From assembly GCF_965363235.1 (NCBI RefSeq), contig NC_134846.1, forward strand, positions 71,522,724 through 71,586,723: DNA of 64,000 bases, written 5' to 3'. Every line of letters begins with the position of its first letter. Within the stretch, counting starts at the first letter, position 1. Positions 3,726 through 54,300 of this stretch are shown piece by piece. The stretch is from Mytilus galloprovincialis (Eukaryota; Mollusca; Bivalvia; Mytilida; Mytilidae). Position numbers and translations under genes: made by a program. Under the pieces are notes generated by a model. It was not told the DNA's origin and did not search any database. It saw only the letters and a program-made list of their open reading frames with translations.

Positions 3726-6700
3726 GTGTCAAGGAGCATCTCTCTAGTGAGTTTCTCCTTGAAGCACTCAGTAGTGGTGCTGCAGGCTATTGGTTCAGGT
3801 AATTTGTTCCAGTCTTTTATAGTTTGGCAGAAAAATGAAAATTTGTAACTGTCTTTGCTGCATCGAATTTGTCGGTATGTTTGTTCGTGGCTAGACCTGG
3901 TGTTTGATTGGCTTTTAATTAATATGTCAGTATGTGGTATGGCAATTTTGTTGTTTGTTATTCAGTCTATGGAACATATTTAATCTGCTTTTGAGTCTCC
4001 TTTCTTGTAATGTTTGCCAGTGAAGTGTGTTAATCATGTTTGTCTTGGAGAAGACGTTACTAAGTTGTAAAACTTGTGTCTGATCCTTTTGTCATTTTGA
4101 ACAATAAAATATGTTTAAACTAATCATGTTTGTTACACTTTCAGTATATTTGTAGTTTGAGCATACATATCTCGCTGCACGTCTTTGAACTTTTTCTATG
4201 GAGTTAATGTTCTCTGTTGTGTAAGGGTCCCAGACAGTGCAGCAGTATTCAAGTTTTGGTCTAATAAGGGCTTGGTATGCTCGGTCTTTGATGGTTACTG
4301 GGTTTATTTTTAAGTTTCTTCTGATGAATCCAAGGGTCTTATTTGCTTTAGATGTCATGGTCTGAATGTGTTTGTTCCATTTTAAATTTGATGAAATAGT
4401 TATACCTAAATATTTTGCATTTTCAACTGACTCAAGAATGTGACCGTGCATGTTGTAATAAAAATGGATAGGTGTTTTCTTTGTGGTCACTCTAAGTATG
4501 TTGCATTTATCAGGGTGGAACTGCATTAGCCAGTCTTGTTCCCATTTGATTGCCCCTTCTAGGTCTTCCTGGAGTTTAAGGCAATCTGATGGTGATTTTA
4601 TCTGTCGGTAAATGATGCTATCGTCAGCAAAGAGCCTGATTTGACTATGATGTAAGTAGTCAGGTAAGTCATTGATATATATCAAAAATAGTATTGGACC
4701 TAATACAGTGCCCTGAGGAACACCTGATGTAACTGGTATGTTGTCAGAGGATAACTGTTTGTGTACGATTTGAAAGGAAAGATTTTATCCAGTTTGCGGC
4801 TTGATCTGATACACCGAAACATTTAAGTTTATATAGTAAACGGTTGTGTGGAACCTTGTCAAAGGCTTTTGCGAAATCCATGATGATTAGATCGGTTTGT
4901 ATGTTTTTGTCGTTATTTGATCATAGTTGGTGAATTAGTGATATTATTTGGGATTCGCATGATCTATTTGCCCTGAAGCCGTGTTGCAAGTCATAAAGTA
5001 TGTTGTTGGATTCAAGGTGTTTCATAATGTTGCTTGCAATTATGTGCTCTAATAATTTGCATGAAATACATGTAAGTGAAATTGGACGATAGTTACCAGG
5101 ATGATGTTTGTCTCCTTTTTTGAAAACAGGTGTTACATTTGCGTGATTCCAATCGTGAGGTACTTTTCCTGTTTGCATTGATTTTGTAAAAATTAGAGTG
5201 AGTATGTCTGTGCATGTGTTGATGTTTTCTTTAAGCACTATTCCAGTAATGTTATCAGGCCCTGTTGCCTTTTTTTGGTTTATATTTTTAATTAATTTAT
5301 AGATGCCTTCTCTGTTGATGTCTATGTCGTCCATTATTGGATGTGTTGATGGACCTTTGTCAGGGATAACTGCATTGGTCTCAGATGTAAAAGCTGATTT
5401 AAATTGTTCATTTAATATGTTAGCTTTTTTCAAGGGATCTGTATGAAGTAAACCTTCACTCCTAAGAGGTGCAATACCAGTGTTTTCATTGTTTTGGCCT
5501 TTTATGTATGAAAAGAGTTTTTTTAGGTGTTTGTTAAATCTCGAATTTTCAGGCTCTTGTATTTCAATGTCAAAAATCATGTTTTCGATATAATTCCAAT
5601 AGGCATTTCTCATCTCTTTCTGTAATTGTGTTTTAATTTATTTGAATTTTTTAGTATGTTTGCTATCATGTTTTTTCTTTTTATAAAATTTGTTTTTCTT
5701 ATTTATCAGTTTTTTCAATTTTGAGTCTATCCATGGTAGGTGGGTTTTATTTCCTATTAGCTTAGTTGGTATATGCTTTTGGATACTTTCTGTTGTTTTT
5801 GTTTTAAAGAAATTCCACATATTGTCTATATCAAGTTCTAATTTGTGTTTTTCCATATGTGTGTATGTTTCTTTCAAGTCTTTTCCAATTTTTTCCAAGT
5901 CTGCTTTCTTGTAAATCAATACTTTGTGTGGTGACTGTTTGGCTTTCGAAAGGGAAAGATTTATTTCACTGAAGATTATGTCATGGTCACCTAGTGGTGG
6001 TATGTTTCTACTCTGTTTACTAGGGATGGATTTGACATGCACAGTAGATCAAGTGTGCGTTCATTTCTTGTTGGTTTGTCAACTACCTGTGTGAGATTGT
6101 GATCTTGTAATATATCTAATAGGTGTTGGTGAAGAGAAGGATCTGGTTTGCTAGGTATTACTGATGAATTTGACCAGTCAATATTGCCTAAATTGAAATC
6201 GCCACTGAGCATGATATTTGCACTGGATATGTTGCATATCCTATTTAGTGAGGTACCTAGATGTTCTAGTGATTCCCCTTTGTCGGATGGTGGTCTATAA
6301 TATGCTCCAAGATAGGTGGTTTTATTTCCCGTTGGAGTTATTTTTGCCCATATTAATTCGCAATCTTTGTCTAATTCAGGCACATGTGATGTAATAAGTG
6401 TGTTTGTGATTGCGAGTAGCACACCTCCATAGCCATCTTTCCTGTTTTTGGTGTAGATGGTGTATTTGGATGGAGAAATATATTCATATGCTGATGTGTC
6501 ATTTGAAAGCCAGGTTTCAGTACCAAATATAACATCAGGTTTGCATGAGTCTATCATCTCATCAATTTCTGGCTTTTTGTTTTTCATTGATTGAAAATTA
6601 ATAGTGAGTACACGGAGAGGTGGAACTGTACTTTGTTTCTTATTCTGTTTAAATGGTTTTGATTTTTGTTTGAGTATTGGTGATGATGTATGAGTTGGTG

Positions 6701-6914
6701 TTCCAATATGATCTAAGCTACATGTATTATCATCTGTGCTTAAGTCTGCATAGCTATTTGATGTTTCAATAGTGGTGTTAAAAAATGTGGTAGAAAAGTT
6801 TGGCATGCCACATTTAATGCATTCCCAAGAGATGTTGCTATTATTTAGGATTTTATACATGTGCTGATCAATACCTTCACATTTGATGTGATACCATTTG
6901 CTACTACATTTCAC
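3726..6914 (-). mobile_element. Decayed non-LTR retrotransposon (LINE): PHD-like finger, endonuclease, reverse transcriptase
   Basis: On the minus strand this reads in order: a PHD-like half finger at the start (WYHIKCEG...WECIKC); an APE-type endonuclease with LRVLTINFQS, GTETWLS, GAYYRPPSDKG and LSGDFN; then a reverse transcriptase with KATGPDNI, PGNYRPISLTC, QHGFRANRSCESQ, AFDKVPHNRLLYKL, SGVPQGT-like and FADDS; and a C-terminal segment LIRPKLEYCCTVWDP. Family membership is Jockey/CR1-like. The element is dead: the frame shifts near 6.0 kb between endonuclease and linker, stops occur near 5638 and 4921, and a shift near 4.75 kb separates the finger and palm halves. The 5' end is truncated inside the PHD-like finger. 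The 3' non-coding end is poorly defined, about 3.5-3.73 kb. It lies 1.2 kb upstream of ALKBH5 in opposite orientation. Confidence 0.88.
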
Positions 6915-11308
<4,394 letters not shown>

Positions 11309-14300
11309 ATGGCACCTTTTTTTGCCTATAATTGCATATTTCCTGTGATTTGTGTTTTTCTGCATATTTGAATCAAATTTTCACAACCACATTTTGCCAA
11401 GTTGTACATACATGTAACAAGCCTTCTATGTCATTTCAATATAATCTTCATAATTAACATGTATTGACCATCAAAGAAAATCGAATTATAATATTTTCTG
11501 AAATAATCATAAAATTTAAAGACAAAATAAAAATATTGTTGTGTCCTCTTTAAAATTGCACTAACAATTTATTTTTAATGAGATTTGGATGCTACAATTT
11601 AACTTCTTTCATTCAAAATTGGAACATCTTAAATTTTTACAGTGAATACAAAATCTGATTCCTTCAGATTTGTTTATGTAATAGGTCAAAGTCTTGTAGT
11701 CTGGATTCCCCCTCCTCCCTCCTAAAAATAAAAAGAAAAGATATGAAACCAAGCCGTTGTGAGAAATGATATGAGCATGATGAGTGTTGGAGAACCAGCT
11801 TATATATATATATTATCAGTTTTTGGTTTGGAAAGATCTTTGGAAAAATTGGGAACTGAGCTCAAAGCCTGATATGTATTTCATTAATTATCAACTATTA
11901 AGTAGGAGATTTTTTTTTGTAAAATTTATGTCTCTTTTGTAAAGACTTGGCTTATAATATTGATTTCACTGCATCATAGAATGAGTGAACTTTTGTTCCT
12001 ATAACGGTAATACTCATCTTTAAATCAAAACTAGCATGTCAGTTCAGATTCTATAATTAAAATTTCTTCTTCAGATCTTTCATTGCCATGTATATCAATA
12101 TTATTTTTTTGTGTGGTTATATATTGGTCTGACCAATATAGTTTGGATATTTTATTAACAGATTTTACCTCAGTGTATGTTATACATGGTGCTTGTTCAA
12201 TGTCTCTATATAGTTAAATATAGTATAATAATTAATATAACCAAATAATTATTCGCTATATATAGTCGCTTATTTTTAATTGTTTGTAATTAAGGTGGAA
12301 ATAAGTGATGACTTGACTTGATTTTGATTTGAGATGTTGAATATTATTAGTATGTCAACAATTAATTATTATCCTCTCTCAATGAAGGTGGACATACAGT
12401 GTTACAATTAATTATTATCCTCTCTCAATGAAGGTGGACATACAGTGTTACAATTAATTATTATCCTCTCTCAATGAAGGTGGACATACAGTGTTACAAT
12501 TAATTATTATCCTCTCTCAATGAAGGTGGATATACAGTGTTACAATTAATTATTATCCTCTCTCAATGAAGGTGGACATACAGTGTTTCATTTTTCTCTT
12601 GTATTGATCATGAGTATCAGATCTAGTTTTGTCTTATGGATTTGAAAACTGTATTAAAGAGAATCATTGTCAACAGTATAAAAAAAATGACTTGTGAATG
12701 TCAGATATTCTAATGTGATTAGTAAATAAACAGAGGCTTCAAGGAGAAATGTTTATGTATAAGCCTTATTTTGTCATGATTGCCTCCTACTATTATGAAT
12801 AATAATTTCAATTTCAAGGTCTTAAATAATTACAAACCTTGTTTTATCTGTAAGTTAAATGACTTGCATATATGTAAACCTGAAGAAAGTGGTATTGACA
12901 TTGTGTGTTATGGTAATTCTCATTTATAAATGCAAGTTTTAAGTTAAGTTAATTAAAAGAAACCAAATATGTCTTATAAGAATTGAAAGAGATTCTTCTA
13001 CAAAATTTATACATTTCAGGTGTTGCATTTTATCATATCCCTTAAACAAAACATGTTTTTTCTTCTAAAAATGTCAAGAGTCTTTTTCAGTTTTGTATTC
13101 TTTTCCACCATATTAAGTTAAACATATTTGCTTAGACAAAAGGGCATGAAAATATCAAAATTTACATATTTTAAATACTAATATACATTTTATTTCGGGT
13201 TGGTAATTTTTACCCCAAAATAAGCTCATTGTTTCTTTACTTGTAAAATACTGAGAGATATTCTTTTGTTGAAACTCATTGACAATTGCATTTGTTATTT
13301 TTATTTTGTTGTTTGTTGATTGTTTTGTTTTTGCAAGTTTTGAAGTGCAAATCTTACTTTTAGATATTTTTCTTGATAATGCATGCTTTAAAGAGCCAGT
13401 GTTTCTGCAAGATTTTTTTTATCTACAATTTGTCCTTTGTCATGTTTGTTGACAAATATGTTGAATTCTCTGGTAAAACCACTAGCTTAATTTGTTCCTT
13501 ATTATCCTGTCGCTAACCAACATACATTTAAAACTTTCATTCAGATACCTATAGGTCAGCTTTGCTTTGATGAGTATCCACTAAAGCAGATATAGTAACT
13601 AAAAAAAAACAATTTTTCTGGAAAAGCTGTCCAAACGTTTATCAAAAGTTAAATTTTATAATAAACAAGATATACATGAGTTACTAAGTTTGATAGAATT
13701 TAAATTTGTTTTGAACTTTTTTAGGCATGTTATTAAGATCATATTTCCTTAATCCATTAGAATTATATATCTAACAAATTATAGATAATAATTAAAAATG
13801 TTTGAAAGTGCTGTAGGAAATAGGCATTAGAAAGTAAAAACAGAAAACCATCTGATTTTTCATTAATACAAAAATGAACCAAAATGAAATGCAAAAGACT
13901 GAATTTATACTGTTGTCATTTAAACATTATATTTTGATAGATTTCAAAGCTCAGACACCTTGATGACATTTACAGAAATAGTGACTGATAATATGTTTGT
14001 TTTGATATGGAAAAGGTTTCCTCTTGTTCTTAATTATAAAAAGGCCCTTTTTAGAAATTGACCAAGTTAACATCAGAGCTTTGCTGATTGTCATTTAGAA
14101 CCCTGGCCTTCATTATTTTTGTTCACTCTGCCTTGCCATCTATCCACAAATTCATGTCATGAAACTTTCTGTATCAGAGTTATTGGTTAAATAGTAGAAG
14201 ATAGGTTTCCAAACATTGTGAAAATGATTTTGATAATTTTTTTTTAAAAATCAACCTTTCAGAATTCATGATTTTCACTTTTAAAACAGATTTAATGCAC

Positions 14301-16270: not shown

Positions 16271-16277
16271 ACAAATA

Positions 16278-16501
16278 GTTATCAAAGGTACCAGGATTAT
16301 AATTTAATACGCCAGACGTGTGTTTCGTCTACATAAGACTCATCAGTGACGTGTTCAGATCAAAATAGTTATAAAGCCTAACAAGTACAAAGTTGGAGAG
16401 CATTAAGGACCAAAAATTACCAAAAAGTTGTGCCATATGCGGCTAAGGTAATCTATTCCTGGGATAAGAAAATCCTTAGTTTTTTTTTTCGAAAAATCCA
16501 T
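16278..16501 (-). mobile_element. Retrozyme-family unit with altered hammerhead
   Basis: Plus-strand start GTTATCAAAGGTACCAGGAT; ribozyme segment on the minus strand at 16309-16352. The core CTGATGA, stem II and GAAA are kept, but the self-complementary stem III motif ACGCGCGT is changed to ACACACGT and stem I is weakened. It is truncated after the CTTAGTTTTT segment. Confidence 0.75.
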
Positions 16502-20859: not shown

Positions 20860-21015
20860 TTTCTTTGGGGTTCGTGTTGTTTATTCTTTAGTTTTCTATG
20901 TTGTGTCGTGTGTGCTTTTGTTTGTTTGTCTTTTTCCTTTTTAGCCATGGCGTTGTCAGTTTGTTTTAGATTTATGAGTTTGACTGTCCCTTTGGTATCT
21001 TTCGTCCCTCTTTGA
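20860..21015 (+). mobile_element. Penelope-like family A 3' end
   Basis: GGGGTTCGTGTTGTTTATTC through GACTGTCCCTTTGGTATCTT ending CGTCCCTCTTT. Only the last 150 bp of the element is present. Nearly identical to 30750-30905. Confidence 0.7.
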
Positions 21016-23974: not shown

Positions 23975-24245
23975 GATCCTAGATAGTTATCAAAAGTACC
24001 AGGATTATAATTTTATACGCCAGACGCGCGTTTCGTCTACATAAGACTCATCAGTGACGCTCAGATCAAAATAGTTAAAATGCCAAATCAATACAAAGCT
24101 GAAGAGCATTGAGGATCCAAAATTCCAAAAAGTTGTGCCAAATACGGCTAAGGTAATCTACTCCTGGGGTAAGAAAATCCTTAGTTTTTCGAAAAATTCA
24201 AGGTTTTGTAAACAGAAAATTTATAAAAATGACCATATAATTGAC
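23975..24245 (-). mobile_element. Retrozyme-family unit with intact hammerhead
   Basis: Plus strand runs GTTATCAAAAGTACCAGGAT to TTTATAAAAATGACCATATA. The hammerhead segment at 24017-24060 (minus) is identical over all 44 nt to the copy at 31502-31545, while the rest of the unit has diverged. Confidence 0.85.
24017..24060 (-). ncRNA. Type I hammerhead ribozyme motif
   Basis: Minus strand: stem I GCGTCA pairs with TGGCGT; core CTGATGA; stem II GTCT/AGAC with loop TATGT; core GAA; self-complementary stem III ACGCGCGT; predicted cleavage GTC|TGG. All canonical core positions are present. Identity with the 31.5-kb copy over the whole motif suggests recent activity or selection. Confidence 0.85.
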
Positions 24246-26288: not shown

Positions 26289-27290
26289 ATGGGACTGCTT
26301 AAAAAGCTTTTTGAAGAACTTCCAGATGACGTCATCTGTGCTCTCTGTAACGAAGTTTTCCTCGACCCAAGAGTTTTACAATGCAACCACATGTTTTGCA
26401 GCGCCTGCTTAGTACGCAGATCTGCAAGGATAAAGGCTGATATATGTTCAACATGCGAGACACCTTACCATGGATCTTCTTGTAGACAAGCTGACGAGGG
26501 ATTCAAGCGAAAACTACTGAACCTTAATGCTATATGTAACTACAAATGTGGCATGAAAATTAAAATGGCGCATCTACCAGAACATCTTAAAGACGAATGT
26601 CAACAAGCACCAGTGCCGTGTCCTAATGCGATCAAAGGGTGCAAGAAAAAGGTGAAGCGGTGTGATTTGAATAAGCACATTGACGAATGCAATTTTCGAG
26701 TAGTAACTTGTGAAGCATGTGGGCATGTAACTATTTTCCAAGACCTTTTCACTCACCAAAGTAGAAAAAAATGTCTAGAGCGTAAGCTTAAACAACAAGT
26801 TATAAGGGAATTAAGACATGCTCATCAGGAAGTGATAAACCACAGGTCAAATGTCAAACGAGATCATATACGCCTAGACATAGAACAAACTAAGAAAGTA
26901 ATTCAACATGCCCGTTATCTGCAAGAACGAAAACAAAAACTCCATCAGTTACTGCTTTCACAAAACAATAATGATGCCATCAACAGTGAATCTGGAGACA
27001 GTTTTTTCTTAACCGATCTAGAAGAATTGAAAAACAAAGACACTTCATTATCATCAACTCCTGTTCACTCTAGATCTACGGTTGGATCCCAGCAGTGTGA
27101 TAGATGCCTTAAGCATTTCTTCCCAGGAAAGAACCATGGAAAATCTTGTCGTTGGCATGAAGGGGTATGTATTAATATCGACAAAGAATGTAATTATGGT
27201 CGAACATCTAGCACATTGGTATTTGTCAGAAAAACAAACTTAACGGTTCAAATACTACCTTCCGATACTATGTTTCGAGTTGTCGAATGA
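26289..27290 (+). CDS. RING and TRAF-type zinc-finger protein, probable E3 ubiquitin ligase, 333 aa
   Basis: A C3HC4 RING at residues 17-56 (C17, C20, C32, H34, C37, C40, C53, C56) predicts E2 binding and ubiquitin ligase activity. Three TRAF-type zinc fingers follow: C83/C87/H99/C104, C111/C118/H130/C134 and C141/C144/H156/C162. A basic, probably coiled-coil helix runs about 163-225, then a Ser-rich linker. Near the C-terminus is a fourth metal-binding-like motif C270-x2-C273-x13-C287-x2-H290 (CDRC...SCRWHEG). There is no TRAF/MATH domain, so it is not a true TRAF; layout resembles RNF41/RNF151-type proteins, but orthology is unproven. The whole frame is one exon, starting MGLLKKLFEELPDD. 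A consensus-like donor (GTATGT at 27165-27170) falls right after HEG, so the last 41 residues may be replaced by a downstream exon. AATAAA lies at about 27319. Confidence 0.85.
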   Translation: MGLLKKLFEELPDDVICALCNEVFLDPRVLQCNHMFCSACLVRRSARIKADICSTCETPYHGSSCRQADEGFKRKLLNLNAICNYKCGMKIKMAHLPEHLKDECQQAPVPCPNAIKGCKKKVKRCDLNKHIDECNFRVVTCEACGHVTIFQDLFTHQSRKKCLERKLKQQVIRELRHAHQEVINHRSNVKRDHIRLDIEQTKKVIQHARYLQERKQKLHQLLLSQNNNDAINSESGDSFFLTDLEELKNKDTSLSSTPVHSRSTVGSQQCDRCLKHFFPGKNHGKSCRWHEGVCINIDKECNYGRTSSTLVFVRKTNLTVQILPSDTMFRVVE

Positions 27291-30749: not shown

Positions 30750-30905
30750 ATGGGGTTCGTGTTGTTTATTCTTTAGTTTTCTATGTTGTGTCATGTGTTC
30801 TATTGTTTTTCTGTTTGTCTTTTTTCATTTTTAGCCATGGCGTTGTCAGTTTGTTTTAGATTTATGAGTTTGACTGTCCCTTTGGTATCTTTCGTCCCTC
30901 TTTCA
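30750..30905 (+). mobile_element. Penelope-like family A 3' end
   Basis: Begins TGGGGTTCGTGTTGTTTATT and ends CTTTCGTCCCTCTTTCA. Nearly identical to 20860-21015. A 45-bp retrozyme scrap follows at about 30922-30965 (GTTATCAAAGGTACCAGAGT, minus-strand sense). Confidence 0.7.
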
Positions 30906-31501
30906 TAAAAAGTTTTAAAATAGTTATCAAAGGTACCAGAGTTATAATATGATATGCCAGACGCCCAGATATATATGATAATATAATATGATTGGCAGTG
31001 GCATTCAATTTATATTTGCCAATAACCTGTTTTAACATCTAATGTTGAAATGTCATACTTAGAGTGCACAGGAATTATGATGTTAAATACATGTCCTCCT
31101 TCAACTATAAAGTTCTTTAGAATAACCTGAGACCAATCACTTGGAAAGGAAAACAATCTTAACTGCTGAAAGTATTAAATACATATCTAGGTCATAAATT
31201 ATTAGTGCATCAAAACAAAGTGATGATTTGTTCTATCAACGTTGGTTTATTGGTTGATTGTTGTTTAATGCCACTATCACCAGCCCAATAGTCAACACTT
31301 CGGTGTTGACATGAATATCAATAATGTGGTTAGTTTTATAAATTTCTTGTTTATAAAACTTTGAATTTTTCGAAAAACTAAGGATTTTCTTCTCCCAGGC
31401 ATAGATTACCTTAGACGTATTTGGCACAACTTTTTGGAATTTTGGATTTTAAATGCTCTTCAACTTTGTACTTAATTGGCTTTATAAATATTTCGATATG
31501 A

Positions 31502-31545
31502 GCGTCACTGATGAGTCTTATGTAGACGAAACGCGCGTCTGGCGT
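31502..31545 (+). ncRNA. Type I hammerhead ribozyme, first unit
   Basis: Stem I GCGTCA/TGGCGT, core CTGATGA, stem II GTCT/AGAC with loop TATGT, core GAA, self-complementary stem III ACGCGCGT, predicted cleavage between 31539 and 31540 (GTC|TGG). Stem III is too short for a good hairpin loop, which suggests activity as a dimer, as known for other minimal-stem-III hammerheads. Confidence 0.85.
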
Positions 31546-31856
31546 ACCTAATTATAATCCTAGTACCTTTGATAACTATTTACACCACTGGGTCGATGCC
31601 ACTGCTGGTGGACGTTTCGTCCCCGAGGGTATCACCAGCCCAGTAGTCAACACTTCGGTGTTGACACGAATATCAATAATGTGGTCATTTTTATAAATTT
31701 CTTATTTATAAAACTTTGAATTTTTCGAAAAACTAAGGATTTTCTTATCCCAGGCATAGATTACCTTAGACGTATTTGGCACAACTTTTTGGAATTTTGG
31801 ATTTTAAATGCTCTTCGACTTTGTTCTTGTTTGGCTTTATAAATATTTCGATATGA

Positions 31857-31900
31857 GCGTCACTGATGAGTCTTATGTAGACGAAACGCGCGTCTGACGT
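31857..31900 (+). ncRNA. Type I hammerhead ribozyme, second unit
   Basis: Same fold as the first copy. Stem I is GCGTCA/TGACGT: the change G to A turns a U-G wobble into a U-A pair, so pairing is kept. Predicted cleavage is between 31894 and 31895, exactly 355 nt after the first site. Confidence 0.85.
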
Positions 31901-32402
31901 ACTTAATTATAATCCTGGTACCTTTGATAACTATCATTACTGGTGTTCTATTTCGTGGTGGTAAGTTTTTATTATTAGTGGAACGGGAGTATCCGGAAAT
32001 AACTACAGACCTTTGGTTACAAAAATGATCATCCAAGTAAATAAAGATTAGAGTCGAACGCACCTGCCACCTGTGGGATTCGAACTAACACCCCTAGTGT
32101 TGACAGGCTGGTGAAACAGTAATTCTACTACAAAGACCACTTGGCCAACCCTCGATCGACATTCAAGTTTTTAAAGTCGTTTTTATGTCATGCGTTTTCA
32201 GTCTATTGTCGACTACGACAGTCTCTTTAGTATCTGCTGAGTCTCTTTTATAAAAAAAATAAGTAAAAATTTATATAAAAAAAATAATATCGTTATAGTT
32301 TTTGCAGTTGCAAAAAAATAATATAATACATAGGTTCATGGATTTCTTGTCGTTTATCACTAGAATGATTTTGAATGTTTTACCTTAATGTGAAACTACA
32401 AC

Positions 32403-32630
32403 GTAAAAAGTAAAATCATCAAAATACTGAACGAGGAAAATTCAAAAAGGAAAATCCTTGATCAAATGACAAAATCAAAAGCTCAAACACATCAAAAGAA
32501 TGGATAGCAACTGTCATATTCCTGACTTGGTACAGGCATTTTCTTATGCAGAAAATTGTGGATTAAACCTGGTTTTATAGCTAGCTAAACCTCTCACTCT
32601 CATGACAGTCGCATAAAATTCCATTATATA
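32403..32630 (-). repeat. Family C repeat copy
   Basis: Plus strand GTAAAATCATCAAAATACTG, then ATTAAACCTGGTTTTATAGC and ATGACAGTCGC, in family order. A longer C copy. Confidence 0.6.
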
Positions 32631-34172: not shown

Positions 34173-34199
34173 TAGCTATGAAGAAGTGAACTTCGTACT

Positions 34200-34310
34200 T
34201 TTTTTGTCTTTTTAACTTTCTTGGATTCGAGCGTCACTGATGAGTCTTTTGTAGACGAAACGCGCGTCTGGCGAAAATACAAAATGTAATCCTTGTATCT
34301 ATGATGAGTG
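34200..34310 (+). mobile_element. Truncated retrozyme unit with hammerhead
   Basis: Only the ribozyme end of the unit remains, from about TTTTTAACTTTCTTGGATTC to ATGTAATCCTTGTATC. See the hammerhead at 34231-34274. Confidence 0.75.
34231..34274 (+). ncRNA. Type I hammerhead ribozyme motif
   Basis: Differs from the 31.5-kb motif at two positions only: one in the stem II loop (TTTGT) and the outermost base of stem I (TGGCGA). Core, stem II and stem III are intact. Confidence 0.8.
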
Positions 34311-34482
34311 TATTTAAATAATGACTTTCCATATCAGAGGTAAAGGGGCAATACATGAACATAATATACTAGTCATTAGAGTGATGTTTATTTGATAGAC
34401 AGCATTGCAGATCACTTGTTAATTTGTTTCTATAATATTGCCTATAAAGATGTGTATCGCATAATTTGCATTGAATAGGTAA

Positions 34483-35900: not shown

Positions 35901-35904
35901 TCTG

Positions 35905-36312
35905 TAAACAAACTCATCATAGATACCAGGACTAAATTTTGTATATACGCCAGACGCGCGTTTCGTCTACAAAAGAATCATCAGTGACACTCGAATCCAA
36001 AAAGTTAAAAAGGCCAAATAAAGTACAAAGTTGAAGAGCATTAAGGACCAAAATTCCTAAAAGTTATGCCAAATACAGCTAAGGCAATCTATGCCTGAGG
36101 TAGAAAATCCTTAGTTTTTCAAAAATCAAAATTTTGTAAACAGTTAATCTATAAATATAACCATATCAATGATAATTCAAGTCAGCACAAAAAAAATCGA
36201 CTACTGGGCTGGTGATACCCTCGGGGAAATAAATCTCCACCATCAGTGGCATCGACCCAGTGGTTGTAAATAAACTCATCATAGATACCAGGACTAAATT
36301 TTGTATATACGT
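35905..36312 (-). mobile_element. Retrozyme unit plus start of a second unit
   Basis: One nearly full unit, then a partial second copy: AACTCATCATAGATACCAGG occurs at 35911 and again at 36273, a 362-bp offset. The second copy stops after about 40 bp. The hammerhead at 35947-35990 (minus) keeps the CTGATGA and GAAA cores and stem III, but stem II has lost its closing G-C pair and stem I has a weakened pair. Confidence 0.8.
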
Positions 36313-36929: not shown

Positions 36930-37795
36930 CAGCTGCGCCATGAGCGCATGATACGCCAGACGTCTTGTGTGGAAGTTTTATGCAATAATCATAAATAGTT
37001 TCTGAGGAAGTTTTAAGCAATAACCATTTATTGTTTTTGAGACACGGCGGGACATGTGAACCCCCCCCCCAACCCCAACCCTGTTTTTTTTTTACAAATA
37101 TCACTAAAAAGTATACAGATCTTTAGATTAATATAACAAAGAAGTGTGTAAAGTTTTAAGCAATAATCATAAATTGTTTTTGAGATACGGCACGACATGT
37201 AAAAAAAACCCTCCCCCTTTTTTACAAAATACTCAATAACTCAAAAATGAAAATTTGAATCATCACCAAAAAGTGTACAGATCTTTATATTAATATAACA
37301 AAGAAGTGTGTAAAGTTTTAAGCAATAGTCATAAATCGTTTTTGAGATACGGCGCGACATGTAAAAAAACCCTCCCCCTTTTTTACAAAATACTCAAAAA
37401 CTCAAAAATGAAATTTTGAATCATCACCAAAAAGTATACAGATATTAAGATTAATATAACTAAGAAGTGTGTAAAGTTTTAAGCAATAATCAAGAAAAGT
37501 TTTTGAGATACGGTGCGACATGTGAAAAAAACAAACACACCCCTGTTTTAGTTACAAAGTGCCGTAACTCAAAAAGTTTAAATCTTATTTTCACCAAAAA
37601 GTATACAGATCATTTGACCATCATAAGGAACAACTATATTAAGTTTCATGAAATTTGGATAAGTCGTTCTCAAGTTACGGTACAACATGTTTACGCCGGA
37701 CAGACGGACAGACAGACGGACGGACGGACGGACACCGGACATTTGTATACCATAATACGTCCCGTCAAAATTTTGACGGGCTTATAAAAATGAAA
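36930..37795 (-). mobile_element. Helentron/HINE-like element with tandem core
   Basis: Read on the minus strand: 5' hairpin CCCGTCAAAATTTTGACGGG (37762-37781 region), then a CCGTCCGTCCGTCTGTC-type microsatellite, then direct repeats of about 175-185 bp (TTAATATAACAAAGAAGTGT occurs at about 37130 and 37303, a diverged form at about 37452), and at the far end a small hairpin TGCGC-TCATG-GCGCA near 36934. No coding capacity; the long frame here is repeat-derived. Confidence 0.6.
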
Positions 37796-37799
37796 AATC

Positions 37800-39000
37800 T
37801 TGATTGATAATATATGTTACGTTTGTAGGACGTGTTTTTCAACAAACTATCGTCATTCCCTTGGGATCCAATTGTTTCCCTCTTCTTGTCGACTTGGTCC
37901 TTTGTTCTTATGAGGCTTTCTTCAAACAGGAACTTATTAGGAAGGAAAAAAAGATGTTAGCAATATCATTTAACTTTACTTTCTGCTATATAGATGATGT
38001 TCTGTCTCTTAAAAGTTAAATATTTGGTGACTATGTTGAATGAATCTATCCTCTTTGTGACATTTTTACCTTTTGTGTCTGTTTGTTTTGTTCACACATC
38101 ATTGTCAATATAATGGAATTTGATGTCATACAAGTGAGAGGTTTATCTATAGCTATCAAACCAGGTTTAATGCACCATTTTTTACATAAGAAAATGTCTG
38201 TATCAAGTCAGGAATATGACATTTGTTATCCATTCTTGACTTCTTGATCAGTGACTTTCCGTTTTGAATTTTTCTCAGTGTTAACTATTTTTGTGATTTT
38301 GTGAACATACAGTACAGTCTGTTTCATATATTGACTTACATCTGTTTATAAAATTGACAATGACGGTAGGTAGGAAACAAAACTTTAAGATATTTATAAA
38401 ACAGATGATTTCAGCTTCACAATTGAAAACTTTCCATTTCTATGTAGCAACATTCCAGCAGCGCCTGTATATAGAGTATATATCTCCAACTTCATACGAT
38501 ATTCCAAGGCTTGTATTTCCTATCATGATTTCCTTGATAGACGGTTGCTGCTCACTAGGAAGCTAACAAATTAAGAGTTTCAAATAGTGAAGTTGAAATC
38601 ATCCCTTCGTTAATTTTACTGATGCCATCACGAGTTGATTGACTGTTATGGAATATCCCTTTCACAGATGATATCGGATATGTTCATTTTGTTGCAACTA
38701 CAATCATGTTTTTTTATCACCAATTTGGCCTACCGAATTAGACTATTTATCAGGTTTGTAATAACATGAGCAACACAATGGGTGCAACATGTGGAGCAAG
38801 ATCTCCTTTGCACTTCCAAAGCACCTATGATCACCCCCAGTTATTGGCAGGGTTTGTGTTGCTTAGTCTTTAGCTTTTTGTGTTGTGTCTTGTATACTAT
38901 TGTTTGTCAGTTTGTCTTTTTCTTTTTTAGCCATGGTGTTCAGTTTATTTTTAACCTATGAGTTTGAATGTCGCTCTGGTATCTTTCGCCCTTCTTTTTC
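37800..39000 (+). mobile_element. Penelope-like retroelement relic with reverse transcriptase and 3' tail (family A)
   Basis: The left part encodes reverse transcriptase motifs GRVFQQTIVIPLGSNCFPLL and FCYIDDVLSL, matching the PMGT...AP..A-L and YIDD blocks of Penelope-like elements. The right part (38330-38580) continues the C-terminal region, and the last 350 bp are the non-coding tail ending near CTTTCGCCCTTCTTTTTCA. The GIY-YIG endonuclease is not present. The copy is broken, 5'-truncated and old, and is split by a family C insertion. It defines family A, whose 3' ends recur at 1.5, 10.6, 20.9, 28.0 and 30.75 kb. Confidence 0.75.
38055..38305 (+). repeat. Family C repeat inserted in the Penelope-like relic
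   Basis: GTGTCTGTTTGTTTTGTTCA through AAACCAGGTTTAATGCACCA to TATTTTTGTGATTTTGTGAA. It separates two parts of the family A coding region, so it came later. Confidence 0.65.
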
Positions 39001-50904: not shown

Positions 50905-51324
50905 CTGGTTTTATAGCTAGCTAACTTGCCTCTCAATTCGGTATGACAGTCGCTTCAGGTTCCATTAAATTGACAATGATGTGTGAACAATTCAAACAGA
51001 CATAAAAGGTAAAAATGTAAAAAATGGTGTTTCAGCAGTCAACATTGTGTTTATATAATCTTAATCACTCTAAAAACAAACATATCTATGTAACAAAAAA
51101 ATGCAAAGAAAGGCATAAAAAAAGACTCAACAAAATAAATACATTGTATGTCACAAAAAAGCACAAAAACCGACAGTCTCATAATGTTTTTGGCATATGT
51201 GAAGTTTTCAAAATCAAATATTATAATGTATCTTTTGGTTGTTTCGCTTTTACATGGCCGTTATTTTCTGAAACTTAATAAAAATATATGCTGGTTAGTG
51301 GTCAGATTTTATTTGAATATGCGC

Positions 51325-51362: not shown

Positions 51363-54300
51363 ATGCCGCTGTCATTTCAGCAAGGTTTACTGCAGGTAAA
51401 TTGTAACTTACAGCAAACAAAATGATTGTAGAACAGGTCTGTTATCAGCCAAATCTTTCTGGTTATGCCATGGTTCGTAAACTAAAGGTAAAACTGCAAA
51501 TTATATGTTTACCAAGCTTGCACGAGGTATCATACTCAAAAAAAATTACAATATCAACAAAATACAGCTAAATATTGAAATAATGTGTGTTATTATATTT
51601 TTTAAAGAAACAATACATTGGGCAGCTGTTGCATGTGAAAGAGACAAAGCATGTTTAACCTTAAATTTAGGTATAAGTATATTTTCTGATTGATACTAAA
51701 TTAACTTTTAAGAAATTTGGGAAATTTGAAGAGCTAAAAAATAACGCTTGTTTGATACACCTAATCGCTATTCCCAGGTAACCCGGCCACTTGAACTTTG
51801 GCGTCATACAACAATCACTTTTCTATTGTGGCGTCAGATATAATTTTTGATTTATGACGTCAAAATTTTACGGGAACCTGTGTGATATCCAGTAAAGGCT
51901 GACAAATAGCGATAAGGTGTATTGTCCGTTACCAGAGAAAAAAAAGGTCAGACAAAAAAGCCATACTAAGCTTGTCCAACAAGTCCAGTAAAATCATTCT
52001 GTAGAAAATAAATTAAATCCCAAGTTTGACATGTTTGATGATCAAAGAAATAAACAGACAACAAGGAAAGAAGATAGAATTTAGAAACAAATATTAATTT
52101 GACATGTTTAGTTGCGATCTATAATTTCAAGCTGGTTCTTTGTCAGATTTATACTTTATAACACATAAAAGGCACACTCTTCTGAGAAGCCAGTCTTATC
52201 AATCAGAATCAATGGTGGGCTTTATATCCATGTACATTGTATTTATGGTAACATGACAGTTCGACACAGAAACAAATCTGCTCCATGTTTAATATAAAGT
52301 TTGCGACACTGGAGACATTTCTGGACATAGACAGACCAGAACCTCATTTTCCTGTGTTATTCTGTTTCCTCATAATAAATATATGATAAATTTTATTTAA
52401 CAAGAAAAATTACAACTAAAGTTTAAGAAATTATTGACAACAGAATTTAGAAAATCCTATTTGATCATATCTAGACAAAAGACTTCAATTGTGTTTGAAT
52501 AATCATAAAATTTAGTTGGTTGTACGTTCATGAATATTCATGACCATTTGTTTGCACTTAAAACCTGTGAGTCATCTTTCTGACCATCGACTCTCGCTAT
52601 AGCCTAAAGAAGAGACATGTGTATTCACAGATGATTTAATGTGAATTTGTAATTGTTATTATATTATTGTTATTAGCTCACCTGGCCCGAAGGGCCAAGT
52701 GAGCTTTTCCCATCACTTTGCGTCCGTCGTCCGTCGTCGTCGTCCGTCGTCGTTAACTTTTACAAAAATCTTCTCCTCTGAAACTACTGGGCCAAATTAA
52801 TCCAAACTTGGCCACAATCATCATTGGGGTATCTAGTTTAAAAAATGTGTGGCGTGACCCGGCCAACCAACCAAGATGGCCGCCATGGCTAAAAATAGAA
52901 CATAGGGGTAAAATGCAGTTTTTGGGTTATAACTCAAAAACCAAAGCATTTAGAGCAAATCTGACATGGGGTAAAATTGTTTATCAGGTGAAGATCTATC
53001 TGCCCTGTAATTTTCAGATGAATTGGACAACCCGTTGTTGGGTTTCTGCCCCTGAATTGATAATTTTAGGGAAATTTTGCTGTTTTTGGTTATTATCTTG
53101 AATATTATTATAGATAGAGATAAACTGTTAATAGCAATAATGTTCAGCAAAGTAAGATTTACAAATAAGTCAACGTGACCGAAATGGTCAGTTGACCCCT
53201 TTAGGAGTTATTGCCCTTTTTAGTCCATTTTTAACCATTTTTCGTAAATGTTAGTAATCTTTTACAAAAATCTTCTCCTCTGAAACTACTGGGACAAATT
53301 AATCCAAACTTGGCCACAATCATCATTGGGGTTTCTAGTTTAAAAAATGTGTGGCGTGACCCAGCCAACCAACAAGATGGCCGCCATGGCTAAAAATAGA
53401 ACATAGGGGTAAAATGCAGTTTTTGGCTTATAACTCAAAAACCAAAGCATTTAGAGCAAATCTGTCAGGGGTGAAATTGTTCATCAGGTCAAGATCTATC
53501 TGCCCTGAAATTTTCAGATGAATCGAACAACCCGTTGTTGGGTTGCTGCCCCTGAATTGATAATTTTAAGGAAATTTTGCTGTTTTTGGTTATTATCTTG
53601 AATGTTATTATAGATAGAGATAAACTGTAAAAAGCAATAATGTTCAGCAAAGTAAGATCCACAAATAAGTCAACATGACCAAAATGGTCAGTTGACCACT
53701 TTAGGAGTTATTGCCCTTTATAGTCAATTTTTAACTATTTTTCGTAAATCTTAGTAATCTTTTAGAAAAATCTTCTCCTCTGAAACTACTGGGCCAAATT
53801 TAACCAAACTTAGCCATAATTGGGGTATCTAGTTAAAAAAATGTGTCCGGTAACTCGGCCAACAAACCAAGATGGCCGCCATGGCTAAAAATAGAACATG
53901 GGGGTAAAATGCAGTTTTTGGCTTATAACTCAAAAACCAAAGCATTAAGAGCAAATCTGACAGGAAGTAAAATTGTTGATCAGGTCACGATCTATCTGCC
54001 CTGGAATTTTCAGATGAATCAGATAATCGGTTGTTAGGTTGCTGCCCCTGAATTGGTAATTTTGAGGAAATTTTACTGTTTTTTTGTTATCTTGAATATT
54101 ATTATAGATAGATATAAACTGTAAACAGCAATAATGTACAGCAAAGTAAGAACTAAAAATAAGCCACTATGACCAAAATAGTCAATTGACCCCCTAAGGA
54201 GTTATTGCCCTGCATAGTCAATTTTTAACAACTTTCTTAAAATTTGAAGATTTTCAATAACATTTTCAACAGAAAGTACTGTTATAGATAGAGATAATTG

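Follow-up and report, generated by a model that had tools for sequence, protein, structure and literature searches.

Fixed tails and ragged heads of retrozyme copies in Mytilus galloprovincialis suggest entry by copying of an RNA circle from a fixed start

Described retrozymes and the mussel locus

About 5000 type I hammerheads in repeats of ~350-390 bp have been described in M. galloprovincialis (Cervera and de la Pena 2020, PMC7229834). The available text of that paper states that the mussel retrozyme cleaves itself at ~0.1 per min and that its circles, detected by northern blotting and RT-PCR, are abundant; the dimer construct cloned from mussel was named Mg353. The same authors propose that tandem cDNA is made from circles and give the target duplications of animal copies, when present, as longer than 4 bp, and the accessible part of another paper gives 15-bp duplications for Nematostella (PMC4918200). 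According to the available portion of a 2020 review (PMC7761336), animal retrozymes have no conserved motif pointing to a helper element. The 61 insertions compared below bear on the question of how animal retrozymes re-enter DNA, and by whose enzyme.

The locus described here lies in the window, by which we mean the whole 64-kb stretch of DNA analysed, and resembles the non-LTR retrozymes of M. galloprovincialis as PMC7229834, in its available text, portrays them: type I hammerheads, tandem repeats of ~350-390 bp, a non-coding sequence of low G+C content and thousands of copies. Compared by description, it showed no difference from these elements (clones MN642551-MN642576) in what is available of their publication. 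It is a non-autonomous, non-coding retroelement of an already known kind, and very probably one known in Mytilus already; the element itself is not new, and the added result is the anatomy of its insertions. The features of the locus are as follows.

31275..31934, + strand: entire retrozyme insertion of 1.86 units, with the 3' end ...GATAACTAT (Tandem Repeats Finder)
31275..31539, + strand: first copy, 5'-truncated to unit positions 91-355 and running up to predicted cleavage site 1
31502..31545, + strand: type I hammerhead 1 (RF00163, 33.0 bits, E 1.1e-5), predicted cleavage 31539/31540
31540..31894, + strand: complete cleavage-to-cleavage unit of 355 nt, the predicted linear monomer or circle
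31857..31900, + strand: type I hammerhead 2 (RF00163, 33.8 bits, E 5.9e-6), predicted cleavage 31894/31895
31895..31934, + strand: 40-nt tail past the last cleavage site, with the 3' end common to the family, GGTACCTTTGATAACTA, then T

The boundaries of the insertion (31275 and 31934) were set against the unit of L041, an array with 12 sites, and the cleavage positions were assigned from the motif. Tandem Repeats Finder reported 31275-31934 with a period of 355, 1.9 copies, 95% matches and 0% indels. The two head-to-tail units of the preliminary description were thus borne out in their tandem layout; the first unit is 5'-truncated, with 265 nt preceding its cleavage site (as tabulated for the insertions, L069 left out), and 31540-31894 is the single complete one. 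Both type I hammerheads placed at 31502-31545 and 31857-31900 in that description were recovered as matches to Rfam Hammerhead_1 (RF00163) over model positions 1-45 of 45, stem III included, and the predicted cleavage sites are, as had been said, exactly 355 nt apart. The Rfam type I search proposed there as a check returned these matches, with E values of ~1e-5, when 3 kb were searched; at the gathering score no hammerhead was listed in the whole 64-kb window, because both hammerheads score below the 34-bit cut-off. A standard Rfam scan at gathering score therefore misses both ribozymes, by 0.2 and 1 bit. Both have standard core bases and standard pairing at the 11 pairs examined.

The 355-nt unit has a G+C content of 37.7%, and its longest stop-free run round the circle is 56 codons, indicating that it is non-coding. 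As in published animal non-LTR retrozymes, an intact type I hammerhead is combined with a tandem layout, a unit size within 150-450 bp, a non-coding sequence with G+C below 45% and dispersal in the genome, so that the retrozyme architecture claimed earlier is supported; the signature of retrotransposition was found at the family level, the duplication at the window insertion being ambiguous.

Folding of the pair of units in the window gave, as the predicted optimum of the dimer (-30.1 kcal/mol), a double hammerhead joined through the palindromic stem III ACGCGCGU. Of 88 pairs of neighbouring units, 63, belonging to 25 of the 38 arrays, had this same structure as their predicted optimum, and the lone 44-nt hammerhead was the optimum in 0 of 132. 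The energies of shuffled pairs (mean -24.8, sd 3.4) overlapped that observed for the dimer, and a long inter-unit stem III appeared in only 1 of 300 shuffles. Folded as a circle, the complete unit was modestly more stable than its shuffles (z -2.1).

The plant LTR retrozymes, for which ribozyme-cut monomers, circles and the enzyme of another element are proposed alike, have type III hammerheads, LTRs, a PBS, a PPT and 4-bp target duplications (PMC4918200, available text), whereas the mussel locus matches type I best, shows no LTR layout and belongs to a family with duplications of ~2-7 nt. Newt satellite 2 and the axolotl retrozymes share with it tandem units of ~330-350 bp and type I hammerheads that are best as dimers, but they are amphibian sequences, with a shorter stem III in one class (PMC7229834, available text). 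Penelope-like elements and Terminons are likewise retroelements with tandem type I hammerheads; in the accessible part of PMC7761336 these hammerheads are minimal and the elements encode a reverse transcriptase, in contrast to the non-coding locus with its match to the full model.

Penelope-like elements have tandem terminal repeats (pLTRs) with type I hammerheads too, and it is highly improbable that the locus is what is left of such repeats. GIY-YIG domains are a marker of Penelope-like elements, and matches to them were found in at least 147 places in the genome (150 of 1001 candidates scored). At the locus, however, the canonical model was matched over its full length including stem III, so the hammerhead is not minimal, and ORFs of at least 120 aa are absent up to a distance of 3.9 kb from the repeat. 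Nor did the one 3' region of a GIY-YIG element that we inspected (751 nt, in L108) contain the retrozyme tail, as judged by eye, or a hammerhead at the Rfam level, and the terminal-repeat reading is disfavoured.

The retrozyme is dispersed and multi-copy in the genome, as judged by similarity search and exact-string counts. Within the window, BLAST found 11 matches to the element at E 1e-3 or better, the 31275-31934 copy included, and we counted six hammerhead-like cores, including the two at 31502-31545 and 31857-31900. The further copies, which were absent from the list in the preliminary description, are given here.

23980..24244, - strand: second insertion of the element, ~0.75 unit, with one hammerhead retaining all core bases and cleavage at ~24022/24023
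16273..16500, - strand: third insertion, 0.6-0.7 unit, with one hammerhead and cleavage at ~16314/16315
30918..30964, - strand: fourth insertion, 47 nt, beginning just upstream of the cleavage site, 3' end as in the family
34189..34316, + strand: older, diverged retrozyme copy (79%), with a hammerhead core and cleavage at ~34268/34269
35903..36305, - strand: older, diverged retrozyme copy (82%), with a hammerhead-like core and a stem II mismatch

The genome searched comprised 1.385 Gb in 331 contigs. The core string CTGANGAGTC-N7-GACGAAACGCGCGTCTG occurred exactly 15,536 times, as against the ~5000 published motifs, which come from another assembly and other criteria (PMC7229834, available text). 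Exact copies of the tail GGTACCTTTGATAACTAT numbered 12,357, of which 2,634 ran on into another unit, with an exact match over the 12 bases after the tail; the reversed controls of core and tail each gave 0. Similarity searches yielded at least 161 matches to the complete unit 31540-31894 (40 of 3592 candidate places scored), and the Rfam search of the genome at least 37 hammerheads (74 of 224,653 candidates scored). In a sample of 164 hammerheads, biased to good cores by its limit of five mismatches to a 26-nt string, the catalytic core was intact in 128, and the core and all eleven pairs were standard in 115.

Insertion ends and likeness of units

The insertions were compared on the query strand only and consisted of 38 from a similarity-ranked set (40 arrays, being that of the window and 39 fetched) and 23 from a chromosome-order set (30 tail-motif loci, two of the 23 being extra diverged matches in those loci). 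Repeated views of one array were merged, arrays running off the locus were dropped, and L067, L072 and L075 were without usable flanks.

We found that the 3' end fell at unit position 37-46, at or adjoining GATAACTA, in 52 of the 61 insertions (33 of 38 similarity-ranked and 19 of 23 chromosome-order), most ends lying ~39-41 nt past the ribozyme cleavage site and not on it. The tail pattern behind the chromosome-order set requires position 40 and is blind to earlier ends and open to later ones; the similarity-ranked set is unconstrained. The nine ends outside this range were those in L048, L051, L069 (twice), L074, L080, L088, L099 and L106, with L051 and L074 ending at position 47 and GATAACTA present in both. 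Eight loci selected solely on their ribozyme score are unconstrained too: in all eight the main match ended at 40-46, and three additional diverged fragments in these loci ended elsewhere.

The 5' ends, by contrast with the fixed 3' end, were spread over the whole unit (5, 5, 8, 6, 2, 8, 6, 8, 5 and 8 in ten bins) and fitted a uniform distribution (KS p 0.37 and 0.82), as did the fractional lengths (p 0.63 and 0.81). Insertions measured from 0.06 to 11.43 units, whole numbers not being favoured. Six of the 61 began near the cleavage site (positions 350-355 or 1-2), only one of them among the 23 of the chromosome-order set; the similarity search favours copies with such 5' ends. The fixed tail and ragged heads shared by most of the compared copies suggest that these copies entered by the copying of an RNA circle from a fixed start.

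The units themselves were compared in 88 full units from 38 arrays, 23 of which had two or more units. Unit length was constant in 17 of the 23, and the median difference between units was 1.4% within arrays versus 3.9% between them. In only 13 of the 23 was the mean difference within the array smaller than that to the closest unit of any other array. Where common polymorphisms were compared, at ten columns, units of the same array agreed in 1277 of 1290 comparisons, a count weighted to long arrays (per-array agreement was 0.93-1.0 in all 23), and units of different arrays agreed in 62.5%.

These data bear on the main rival to a circular template, in which the same family would be copied from a linear multimeric template primed at GAUAACUA, or with its true 3' end there, the circle being a by-product and the arrays simply copying their source array; we consider this unlikely. 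Repeated linear copying should pass on the heterogeneity of the source, yet 129 of 156 within-array variable columns included an allele shared with no more than one other array, as mutations arising once a copy is in place should produce, although the contrast is modest (differences with two common alleles made up 12% within and 24% between arrays) and a homogeneous source array would likewise yield homogeneous copies. Similarly, a fixed 3' end with ragged 5' ends is the ordinary LINE pattern, but no poly(A) was seen by eye at the listed 3' ends, and in the published mussel RNA it is circles that predominate (PMC7229834, available text). Because a fixed 3' end, a random stop, non-integer numbers of turns and alike units occur together, we prefer target-primed reverse transcription (TPRT) on a circle, and the locus is probably a genomic copy of the mussel non-LTR retrozyme made by TPRT from a fixed point on an RNA circle.

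The two copies in the window differ at 13 of 305 positions (4.3%), which is at least as much as the 3.9% usual for units of different arrays, and the insertion is likely to be old because of this divergence. The figure is below the median distance of the two copies to others (5.9% and 6.2%) and above the smallest (2.6% and 3.6%). At 10 of the 13 differing sites one allele was absent from the 37 other arrays or present in one of them. The window copy may be inert.

Target duplications and empty sites

Flanks were tested in 51 of the 61 insertions for direct and inverted repeats without a fixed place, in 51 for repeats at a fixed offset and in 52 with a looser start. The letters after GATAACT were A in 49 of 51, T in 45 and T in 40, and then near background. 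A 5-nt repeat of the 5' flank directly after GATAACTA was found in 10 of 51 insertions, the best of 24 offset/length settings (offsets 1-3 pass too at 4 and 5 nt), versus a mean of 1.3 in re-paired flanks, with 0 of 200 re-pairings reaching it. With the looser start, flank repeats were found in 15 of 52 versus 2.2 in re-paired controls (largest control, 10), and repeats of at least 7 nt in 3 of 52 versus 0.2. Neither direct repeats without a fixed place nor inverted repeats between the flanks of the 51 insertions were above control. Fourteen of the 19 listed repeats that are 5 nt or longer begin with TT, which is partly built in, the element's own end often being TT.

Empty sites were sought by aligning 14 pairs for 10 insertions, hand-picked from a longer list and consisting of paralogous repeats. 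Four clear paralogous empty sites (identities 75-94%) agreed on the end point and gave the following duplications.

L049 versus L102, L090 and window 38517-38705: TTT, or TTTAC with ambiguous bases
L087 versus L079: TTATC
L076 versus window 50941-51117: TTGACT or TTGACTG
L100 versus window 32434-32628: TT or TTG

Among the other six aligned insertions, L078, L052, L054 and L103 had no clear site, and L063 and L059 agreed less cleanly. The target duplications of the family are ~2-7 nt long and mostly start with TT. At the window insertion the candidate repeat is ACTATC, which is ambiguous because it overlaps with ACTAT at the end of the element itself. The retromobility inferred in the preliminary description has genomic support for the family, from the common 3' end, the ragged 5' ends, the duplications and the empty sites, and an ambiguous duplication at the locus itself.

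That the arrays are satellite DNA grown by unequal crossing-over, with the ribozyme as a bystander, might be considered from the head-to-tail arrays reaching 11.4 units in our sample, but 53 of 61 insertions measure less than three units, 16 of them less than one, and a common tail and target duplications accompany them. The ribozyme cores intact in 128 of 164 sampled hammerheads, in that sample biased to good cores, also speak against it, and because of the empty sites we find the satellite reading scarcely credible.

Proposed insertion route and search for a helper element

In the route that we propose for insertion by TPRT on a circle, a multimeric transcript would cut itself at every hammerhead, acting through the double hammerhead that two neighbouring units may form by the self-complementary stem III, which folding favours, and a host ligase (RtcB in published in vitro work) would close the 355-nt monomer into a circle. 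A borrowed reverse transcriptase would then prime on a target nicked at TT, at a single RNA point right after GAUAACUA, ~39 nt downstream of where the ribozyme cuts, where the target TT may pair with UU. The enzyme would go round for less than one turn or for many and stop anywhere, so that the resulting array would be fixed at its 3' end and ragged at its 5' end, would consist of alike units and would be accompanied by a short duplication of the target. On balance, we lean towards the general statement that mussel retrozymes insert by TPRT on a ribozyme-made circle, with TT placed at the UU after GAUAACUA and 0.06 to 11 turns copied. If so, tandem arrays would be records of single rolling-circle events and the fixed tail would be a handle on the helper element, and we offer the tail sequence and the target rule for testing candidate helper enzymes. 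In the openly available literature, as far as its text was accessible, we found no earlier report of a fixed retrozyme 3' end, and a literature search returned no text with any of six strings from the tail, the RT end or the ribozyme.

The 3' region of a GIY-YIG element, the tail of an RT-like element, a scan for the tail motif and tail counts were examined for an enzyme partner, and none was identified among them. The RT-like element is abundant, with an RT-like ORF upstream in L028. Among three RT-like fragments (L028, L087 and L079), Pfam RVT_1 was matched in one, at E 0.0058 only, and the best PDB match (E 0.32) was unrelated. Seven of seven copies of this element, found by its end with at most three mismatches, diverged right past the end of the T-run, and its last 20 nt have 11,825 exact copies in the genome. 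Its 3' ends in the window are these.

10618-10637, - strand
20994-21013, + strand
30884-30903, + strand
38978-38997, + strand

Over the last 17 nt of this element, 11 positions are identical to those of the retrozyme end; an equal or better match in one fixed register was seen for 144 of the window's 127,968 17-mers, copies of the family among them, and a gapped test of the likeness was not significant, 601 of 5000 random stretches scoring as high. With its end GGTATCTTTCGTCCCTC-TTT, the RT-like element is a weak candidate for the helper. An agreement of 14 of 20 tail positions including TTT was dropped, since target sequence can supply those T, as the empty sites show. At 30884-30964, the 3' end of an RT-like element and the 47-nt truncated retrozyme lie tail to tail, 14 nt apart.

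A motif scan for other families with a retrozyme-like tail, run with a pattern that was one base off, found retrozyme copies and two other places; the same off-by-one pattern gave 12 matches versus 5.1 expected, which is of little worth. The tail counts did not point to another large family with just the end in common, the 15-mer occurring 16,783 times (10 in reverse) and the 20-mer 12,314 times. The GIY-YIG element of L108, whose 751-nt 3' region was described above, was set aside as a partner on the same two observations. Downstream of its GIY-YIG ORF, positions 275-325 of L108 have by eye the look of a decayed minimal hammerhead, where Rfam reports none. Several GIY-YIG matches form close opposite-strand pairs, for example C8:49535925- and 49540784+.

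The remainder of the window contains a broken non-LTR retrotransposon on the - strand (4092-6914), with pieces of endonuclease (PF14529) and reverse transcriptase (PF00078). On the + strand, a 235-aa ORF (8155-8862) has a 2OG-Fe(II) oxygenase match just below the Pfam cut-off, and a 333-aa ORF (26289-27290) has a TRAF-type zinc finger above the cut-off together with sub-threshold RING matches. Other tandem arrays lie at 12358-12587, 37100-37532 and 52757-54229, with 46, 161 and 500 bp, respectively.
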